Source: Tubiluchus corallicola
Lineage: Eukaryota > Priapulida > Priapulimorpha > Priapulimorphida > Tubiluchidae
Assembly (NCBI GenBank): GCA_030141605.1
Contig: JAQGDQ010000280.1
Location: 57,510-121,509 of the forward strand
DNA: 64,000 nt
Reading direction: 5' to 3'
The position numbers were made by a program, and so were the translations under genes. The notes beneath the pieces were generated by a model. That model was not told the origin of the DNA. It did no database searches and saw only the letters and a program-made list of their open reading frames with translations. This document shows, in pieces, positions 44,501 to 47,500 of the stretch (its first letter is position 1; every line of letters starts with the position of its first letter).

Positions 44501-47500
44501 AATGAAGTAGGTAAGGTTCTAGCTAGCTGTTAAAACTGTTACTATTATAATAGAAAGGGCTGCAAGGCGTTGTCAAATGTAAACAAATGCATTGTCTGGT
44601 ACACTTAACCCTCCTTTGATCTTTCATCATCATACGGTGGAAGTGTGAAAAGACTTATTGCCCTGTAATAGTGACAAGAAAGGCGGTGCTTTGGCTGTCA
44701 GGTGTTGCATGGCTGTTTTTTATGTGTGCTTTGTTTTCATGAAGATGAGAATTTGAGGTATAGTTGACGTTACAAATTCACAATGTTTTAAATTTTTAAG
44801 TCCATGAAAACACAGGAAAGGTGAAAAAGTTGAGGTGCCGCCTAGATTTGAACCGATGACTTTTTGCTTGCGAGACAGATTCCTTAAAAAAGTTCATTTA
44901 CTGCAGCTCCAGGTAGGCAAGGAGTCCTTAGTTGTACAAATTTTATTATGAAAGTCTGTCAAAAGTGTGACGTATGCGCAAATAATGTCAGAAGTTGGTC
45001 AAGGTGGAACAGTGCCTGTTCAAATAGGCTTATAGCACGTTGGCAAATATGTAATGTGGTATCTTGTAGTGTGTGCAGTGTATAGAATGCAAATATGTGT
45101 TTGTTATTGTCTCACATTCAAGTGCTCTTCTAAATAACCTTGTTTAAGATAGTTCAAAGTGCAAAGAACACAACTATACATCTGCAGTCTTTTGACAAAT
45201 AAGTGGTTAAGAGAAGGAATAGCATTTAATAAACACGAAAGAGAAGTGGTGTGAAGTCGCCCAGGAAGGGCAATAGGCATCATGTCGTCGACGAGTGCTG
45301 GCGCAGCAGTGACGGCGACATCTTTGGCGACGGCACTGATAACTTTAACAACCAAGTTAAACGAGCATTTGGACGAACGCGGAGCTCAAATTCGTAAAAT
45401 CGGTGAGACCTTTCAGGAGCAGTCGGGACTGTACTCTCCAGAGTTTTATGAAACCCTGTCAGTCGTTAGATTTCCTGTCATCTACATGTTTGTCGACTTG
45501 TTCAAAAGCCTTGGCGTTCTTACTTTCACAGAGCTAGAGAATCTATGGAAACCCTTCTACAGTATTTCTATCATTAGGGAAGCAGTCGACGAATTCCTGG
45601 ACGTCCAGGATCGTTTAAGCGACACTTTCAGAGGCTTTGATCTTCCCTTACCAAAGGACCAATCAAAACTGGGCGAGGAAGGACCGATCGATATATCACT
45701 AGTAAATCCGAGAACTGGCGAAGAGTCGAGTATAAGAGATTACATCGGAGATTGGAATTTGCTTGTTATATTACTGAGGCAGTACACGTGAAATCCGTGA
45801 CGACGGCATATTGCAGCTGTCAACGACAACATTGATAAATTTACACGTAAAAATACGAAGGTTCTTCTTGTACGGTATGAAAGTGTGAAGCTTTCCCGGA
45901 TGTTTTTGGAGCAGGAGAATTGTGCACTCGACATGCTGGTGGATACCAAGAGGGAGGTGTATCATTTTTTCGGCATGGGGCGCTCCATGAATCATGCTCT
46001 AGGAACCTTTAAAGACATGGAATTTTACATAAAAGGTATTATTGAAACGGGCAGCTATCCGGGGGTGCCAGATGTGGAGGCACCAGAGGATGACGATGTT
46101 TTCCAGATGGCTGGTGAATTTTTGCTGGACAGTAAGGGAAAACTGGTGTGGTTATACAGAGCAGCTGGTGCCACATTGCGGCCCTCTGTAGAAGAGATTT
46201 TACAAGTTATACCTGGAAACACAGAGTAAAGACTGCACCAAAGCCTGTGTTAGAGTTTTTTGGCTTGTGATTTGAACAATTTATGAATGCAGTTAGCAAA
46301 ATGGATTCCAAGCTTCTTGCAGGAGACAATTTTGTTTATTTCACATTGACCTTTCTTCTTTTTTATTTCCCGTACTTTTATATTTTATTTTCAATTGAAA
46401 AGCTGCTTTTACATCCTGTTTGCAAAATATTATTAAAGCTCTCAATGTTCATAATTATAAATAATTTATATAGATGCAAGACCAGCACTGTAAACAGTGT
46501 TAGACCTTGGTAATAGTGTAATAATTACCATGAATAATGTATTGACATATATTACATTATTGTGATTTGAAAATTTTAAAATAAAAGTGGTAATTTTCTA
46601 TCATTAATTTGGTTACCGTATATACTCCATATAAGCCGAATTTAGAACTATAAAATACAATACTGAAATCAGGGGTCGCTTATATGCGATGAAACAAAAT
46701 ACACAAGACAGACACTAACCAATTTTTTGTGAATAAATAGAAAACAAAATATTTTCTTCTTTATTCATATCAAAAATTTCTTCTAGTATGTAACATAAAA
46801 GTAAGCATTTTACATCTTTATAGTAAAAAATTTCTATGAACCAAAAATACCCAATTAACAAAATGTGACAAAAAGGATCAATTTTGTTGATTGGGTATGG
46901 AGGAAAATTAGACAAGTTGATGGTCGGCTTATATACGGGTTTTTGCAAAAACTGGCCATTTTAAAGCAGTTTTAGGGGGTCGGCTTATATGCAAACAACT
47001 TACTAATGTACACCAAGTAACTTGCAATTCGGACTAAAGAGCAAAACTTGCTGCAAGTTATTCTTAGACAGCTAACGCTCGATTTATTTTTAGACAGCTA
47101 ACGCTCAAGTTATTCTTAGACAGCAATGCTCAAGTTATTCTTAGACAGCTAACGCTCAAGTTATTCTTAGACAGCTAACGCTCGAGTTATTCTTAGACAG
47201 CTAACGCTCAAGTTATTCTTAGATAGCTAACGCTCAAGTTATTCTTAGACAGCTAACGCTCAAGTTATTCTTAGACAGCTAACGCTCAAGTTATTCTTAG
47301 ACAGCTAACGCTCAAGTTATTCTTAGACAGCTAACGCTCAAGTTATTCTTAGACAGCTAACACTCAAGTTATTCTTAGACAGCTAATGCTCAAGTTATTC
47401 TTAGACAGCTAACGCTCGAGTTATTCTTAGACAGCTAATGCTCGAGTTATTCTTAGACAGCTAACACTCAAGTTATTCTTATACAGCTAATACTCAAGTT

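Follow-up and report, generated by a model that had tools for sequence, protein, structure and literature searches.

A 64,000-nucleotide stretch of the Tubiluchus corallicola genome (contig JAQGDQ010000280.1, positions 57,510 to 121,509; referred to here as the window) very probably contains, judging from its sequence, a functional gene for a SelL-type selenoprotein, in which two UGA codons would be read as selenocysteine (Sec; U) by means of a selenocysteine insertion sequence (SECIS) in the 3' untranslated region (3' UTR) and a tRNA-Sec encoded in the same genome. A first-pass annotation had proposed a SelL-type UxxU selenoprotein at this locus, a reading now supported by profile similarity, by the presence of both TGA codons at the seven loci of the genome in which the active-site stretch was found, by selection on the frame, by the SECIS, and by tRNA-Sec. 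The features of the gene are as follows.

45282..46229, plus strand: coding sequence, single exon, for a predicted 315-residue UxxU selenoprotein, with the TAA stop at 46227-46229 (translation; ratio of nonsynonymous to synonymous substitution rates, Ka/Ks; Pfam)
45282..45650, plus strand: N-terminal helical region, residues 1-123 (conserved in paralogues and database N-terminal fragments; structure model)
45654..46226, plus strand: peroxiredoxin/thioredoxin-fold domain, residues 125-315 (Pfam; structure model)
45789..45791, plus strand: TGA codon 170, first U of UxxU (translation; TGA likewise in paralogues)
45798..45800, plus strand: TGA codon 173, second U of UxxU (translation; TGA likewise in paralogues)
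46274..46337, plus strand: SECIS, with its ATGA 54 nucleotides past the TAA (pairing-score scan, blastn, fold, covariation)

Reading frame and fold of the window protein

Translation of the plus strand from 45282 to 46229 confirmed the earlier claim of a 315-codon frame broken only by two TGAs three codons apart. The sole breaks are codons 170 and 173, in the context LLRQYT-U-N-P-U-RR, and the reference frame has no other stop before its terminal TAA. The probability of a run of 315 random codons free of TAA and TAG is about 1e-10 at the 36% G+C of the window. The standard list of open reading frames (ORFs) splits the locus into a 169-residue piece (45282-45791) and a separate piece (45885-46229), as the first-pass annotation had expected, and database fragments from other contigs match this division.

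The read-through protein matched the Pfam model AhpC-TSA over residues 145-236, a range spanning both TGAs (45.1 bits; cut-off, 26), and AhpC-TSA_2 over residues 184-294 (42.9 bits; cut-off, 27). The best NCBIfam model was NF040769, "SelL-related redox protein" (E = 4.7e-28; next best, 3e-4), which aligned residues 144-310 to profile positions 11-173 of 173 and was also the top NCBIfam model for two paralogues (E = 3.6e-31 and 1.6e-30; next best, 1e-6 and 3.5e-7). The library from which NF040769 originates serves bacterial and archaeal annotation. Although the match to AhpC-TSA_2, a PRXL2/SelU-type model, passes its cut-off, the motif is UxxU and the SelL-related model is the best in NCBIfam; PRXL2/SelU proteins have a single Sec or a CxxC in their active site.

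Compared with NF040769, the window protein has an extra N-terminal region of about 125 residues, for which the structure model predicts five helices between residues 12 and 117. In the model, the C-terminal domain has a peroxiredoxin fold in which a strand (residues 159-165) precedes helix 171-182, with UxxU (170-173) at the helix start; two of the five modeling runs had a mean pLDDT (predicted local distance difference test) of only 51-54. In thioredoxin folds, CxxC is located at the start of a helix that follows a strand. The predicted structure, in which UxxU opens the helix, is consistent with the earlier proposal that the TGAs coincide with the CxxC active site of a thioredoxin-like fold. 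Identity to peroxiredoxin-type structures of the PDB (3hjp, 9usa) was 13-20% among the matches listed. Unlike peroxiredoxins and PRXL2-type proteins (AhpC-TSA, AhpC-TSA_2; 3hjp, 9usa), the window protein would carry Sec instead of Cys at each of the two positions.

SECIS element and tRNA-Sec

The SECIS did not figure in the first-pass annotation. Its lower helix pairs 46274-46279 with 46332-46337 and its upper helix pairs 46288-46297 with 46312-46321. The motifs are ATGA (46283-46286), AAAA (46298-46301), and the opposite GA (46323-46324), with a small apical helix in the single-sequence fold. A pairing-score scan (ATGA or GTGA, 9-13 nucleotides, AA or CC, 18-35 nucleotides, GA, with paired arms) placed the top site of the whole window, both strands included, at 46283, with a score of 13.4 (runner-up, 10.7). 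For comparison, when the 3' flank (1,771 nucleotides) was shuffled 200 times, the top scores had a 95% point of 11.2, and 20 shuffled 64-kb windows yielded 9 sites in total scoring at least 13.4, both shuffle sets preserving base composition but not dinucleotide composition. The window element had been spotted by eye before the scan was tuned; those of the paralogues on contigs C1460, C1151, and C1936 (see below) had not been seen beforehand.

The minimum-energy fold of 46265-46345 is the SECIS hairpin (-19.2 kcal/mol), and four other SECIS elements have folding-energy z values of -2.7 to -4.7. In the alignment of four elements, 8/8 upper-helix pairs are kept and four of them are changed on both sides, a result matched in 16 of 500 shuffles. 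Sliding the partner arm by 1-3 columns left 33-54% of the cells paired, with 0-1 pairs showing double changes. RNAalifold recovered both helices without a supplied structure (14 pairs, 4 with double changes). Alignment by blastn of window positions 40000-50000 with C1771 extended over 45249-46346, from just before the ATG through the end of the SECIS. With C1460, it covered the ORF (45277-46201) and then only 46266-46344, that is, the SECIS in the 3' UTR.

Two tRNA-Sec genes with the anticodon TCA are present in the genome (77.6 and 70.3 bits; cut-off, 47), in a search in which control genomes matched the family too (14/14, 5 over the cut-off). Thirteen further matches to the tRNA-Sec model fell under the cut-off, and the two that were inspected (L022 and L023) are tRNA-Ser genes.

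Paralogues in the same genome

With the read-through protein as query, the assembly that contains the window (343.5 Mb, 2,344 contigs) returned 18 rows at E ≤ 10. A second search, with the database protein P0008, returned 11 rows, all at loci already found. These searches score the best candidates only, and the family may be larger; the weakest match, on C1716 (E = 8.1), was left out of the count. Full-length intronless copies with two TGAs are located on C1771 (71% identity to the window protein) and C1460 (66%). A duplicate of the C1460 copy, at C1151:6850-5182 (minus strand), also has two TGAs, with an interruption of about 0.7 kb near codon 267. Three copies contain introns, namely, C1936 copy A (U-GP-U), the 5' exons of which are probably beyond the contig end; C1936 copy C (U-GA-U), with matches from 20450 to 13053; and a diverged copy at C36:606195-602853 (minus strand; U-VP-U), the C-terminal exons of which were not found in the stretch examined. 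The other four of the seven UxxU loci (the window gene and the C1771, C1460, and C1151 copies) lack these introns. The active-site stretch is missing from two additional loci, one of them an isolated last exon on C1936 and the other a degenerate copy at C2128:129136-129471, which has several stops and in which the UxxU stretch was not found.

TGA was present at both positions in 7/7 loci with the active-site stretch, and Cys in none. The first-pass annotation had proposed an inspection of these two columns in relatives, and at these seven loci of the genome they hold TGA throughout. The string TGA-AAT-CCR-TGA occupies the same columns in the C1771, C1460, and C1151 paralogues. A SECIS was found for six of the seven UxxU loci, including the C1936 copies and, after the stop, C1771, C1460 (about 1 kb downstream), and C1151. 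For the C36 copy, the stretch examined yielded none, its best pairing score being 9.3.

Codon comparisons gave Ka/Ks values before the first U and after the second U of 0.20 and 0.14 for window-C1771, 0.16 and 0.13 for both window-C1460 and window-C1151 (pieces joined), and 0.13 and 0.10 for C1771-C1460, with Ks values of 0.9-1.8 throughout these four comparisons. In the window frame, purifying selection acts both before and after the TGAs, and conservation of the protein is at least as strong in the second part as in the first. For the recent C1460-C1151 pair (Ks, 0.07-0.08), the Ka/Ks values of 0.48 and 0.60 are compatible with relaxed constraint on one of the two copies.

Database relatives and origin of the intronless copies

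In a set of 5.8 billion proteins, a 190-residue C-terminal piece matched 3 proteins at E ≤ 10, and a five-row alignment query matched 9 at E ≤ 1, none of which bears a name. Four of the nine are N-terminal fragments of 153-169 residues that stop immediately before the column of the first U, one of them (P0010) being of the C36 type; the other five are C-terminal fragments of 134-143 residues beginning with a Met located past the second U. P0005 and P0008 share a longest-contig value (1873), as do P0007 and P0009 (1434), and each pair therefore probably represents the two halves of one gene. Thirty stretches from a conserved-peptide scan of genome contigs were considered, and none was confirmed as a relative.

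A midpoint-rooted tree built from the C-terminal part grouped the window gene, C1771, and C1460 with P0002 and P0003 (100/100) and the C1936 copies with P0005-P0007 (100/100), and it paired C1771 with P0003 (95/94). The closest row to the window gene is P0002, which comes from another contig (79% identity; 78% in the aligned part downstream of the TGAs), with no supported fork joining the two. From this tree, the intronless copies seem to have been distinct already when the source of the P fragments split off. The window gene is intronless while the C1936 paralogues, on another contig, have introns, and its probable ancestor is therefore a retroposed mRNA that brought its SECIS with it.

Alternative explanations

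Several observations weigh against a functional SelL-type gene. No Rfam SECIS match was obtained in 45000-49500, even at E values up to 10, and a first, stricter fold-based scan did not detect the element; the pairing-score scan was written because both had missed it. The covariation rests on only three distinct SECIS sequences, the folding energy of the window element has a z value of only -1.97 (8 of 200 shuffles folded equally well), and the base after the opposite GA is G or A, where the usual SECIS form has U. A search with the full-length protein yielded nothing at E ≤ 1e-3 among 1,854 candidates. Finally, NF040769 bit scores (98 for the window protein, 108 and 106 for the paralogues) are all under the curated cut-off of 120.

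That last result bears on the possibility that the gene belongs to a different, unnamed peroxiredoxin-like UxxU family rather than to SelL itself. SelL kinship was judged by a profile, and UxxU also occurs in a separate peroxiredoxin-like 2 family of marine metagenomes, according to the accessible part of PMC2398784. We nevertheless consider such a family unlikely, the SelL-related model being the best in NCBIfam for the window protein and two paralogues, and the two Sec codons two residues apart with a single SECIS being as described for SelL (PMC3316567, accessible part). The comparison with SelL and PRXL2 proposed in the first-pass annotation thus returned a low E value for the SelL-related model, though with 98 of the 120 bits, and an AhpC-TSA_2 match over its cut-off.

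The TGAs might instead be disabling mutations in a decayed processed copy. The window gene is intronless, the C1936 and C36 copies contain introns, and damaged copies occur in the family, with several stops in C2128 and the interruption of about 0.7 kb in C1151. A retropseudogene is very unlikely, however, given that both TGAs are present in all seven loci, intron-bearing ones included, that selection acts on both sides of them, that the SECIS is kept with compensatory changes, and that a protein from another contig (P0002) is closely similar downstream of the TGAs. Readthrough of UGA, or its decoding as Cys or Trp without selenium, would yield the same frame pattern. It appears least probable of all, since a SECIS and tRNA-Sec are present, both UGAs are predicted to lie at the CxxC place of thioredoxin folds, and the frame ends in TAA with no other internal TGA.

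Surroundings in the window

A 26-bp tandem array of 38.7 copies occupies window positions 47054-48059, about 0.8 kb downstream of the gene. A 200-residue ORF at 8753-9355 (minus strand) resembles, by eye, the reverse transcriptase of a non-LTR (long terminal repeat) element.

Proposed mechanism and four-SECIS paralogue

The frame, the conservation of both UGAs, the two-sided selection, the SECIS with its covariation, the tRNA-Sec, and the predicted fold are supported by sequence; actual Sec decoding, a diselenide, and a substrate are what we infer. The SECIS in the mRNA would recruit the Sec machinery, and both UGAs, nine nucleotides apart, would be read as Sec. The product would be a thiol/selenol oxidoreductase in which the Sec170-Sec173 pair cycles between diselenol and diselenide. 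By analogy, the two selenols probably form a reversible diselenide, because such a bond is stated for SelL (PMC2397514; this and the other papers cited below were available in part).

In C1936 copy A (C1936-A), the 3' UTR (C1936:31849-32418, minus strand) is a 158-bp tandem array of 3.6 copies (92% matches) containing four SECIS elements, at C1936:32394, 32237, 32079, and 31921, all of which follow the TAG and precede an AATAAA located about 0.63 kb after it. The one that was folded had an energy z value of -4.66. The array may be a neutral duplication. As a tentative proposal, about which we remain doubtful, SelL may now be a multigene family in this animal lineage, spread partly via retroposed SECIS-bearing mRNAs, with UxxU kept in every copy for which the exon was found and with one paralogue that has reached four tandem SECIS elements within about 0.6 kb, the extra elements raising the decoding of the closely spaced UGAs. 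If true, the family would offer a natural dose series, one versus four SECIS elements, for double-Sec insertion.

Comparison with known selenoproteins

SelL, termed a peroxiredoxin-like protein (PMC2398784), is reported to have two Sec residues two residues apart and a single SECIS and has been reported in fish (PMC3316567), in sponge, placozoan, sea anemone, Capitella, and amphioxus (PMC3473315), and in Ciona expressed sequence tags (PMC2874816). The accessible part of PMC12936836 does not mention SelL. Since SelL is a known family, the window gene is a new member, ordinary in kind; the expanded family and the four-SECIS paralogue might be the part that a specialist would not expect. The titles and abstract beginnings surveyed, which leave most subscription papers outside their coverage, mention neither several SelL copies nor several SECIS elements in SelL.

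Under standard annotation, a gene of this kind breaks at its first UGA, and fragments flanking UxxU are present in the protein set that was searched; the locus offers a complete SelL-type gene with its own SECIS. The family is material for studying how a pair of UGAs nine nucleotides apart is served by a single SECIS or by several, and why a double-Sec site persists in the copies.

Like SelL, the window gene has UxxU, a predicted peroxiredoxin/thioredoxin-like fold, and one SECIS in the 3' UTR. Of the six invertebrates in a published table of SelL copies, five are listed with a single copy and the other with none (PMC3473315); unlike in those animals, with at most one copy each, there are here seven UxxU loci, four of them without the introns of the others, and a paralogue with four SECIS elements. 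More than one SECIS per 3' UTR is also found in the mRNAs of selenoprotein P (PMC5133445) and Ciona SelW1 (PMC2874816), with two elements each, in comparison to four in tandem in C1936-A. SPS2b, a selenophosphate synthetase, is likewise a selenoprotein gene born by retrotransposition (PMC3316567), an origin that is probable for the window gene, which belongs to another family and another lineage.
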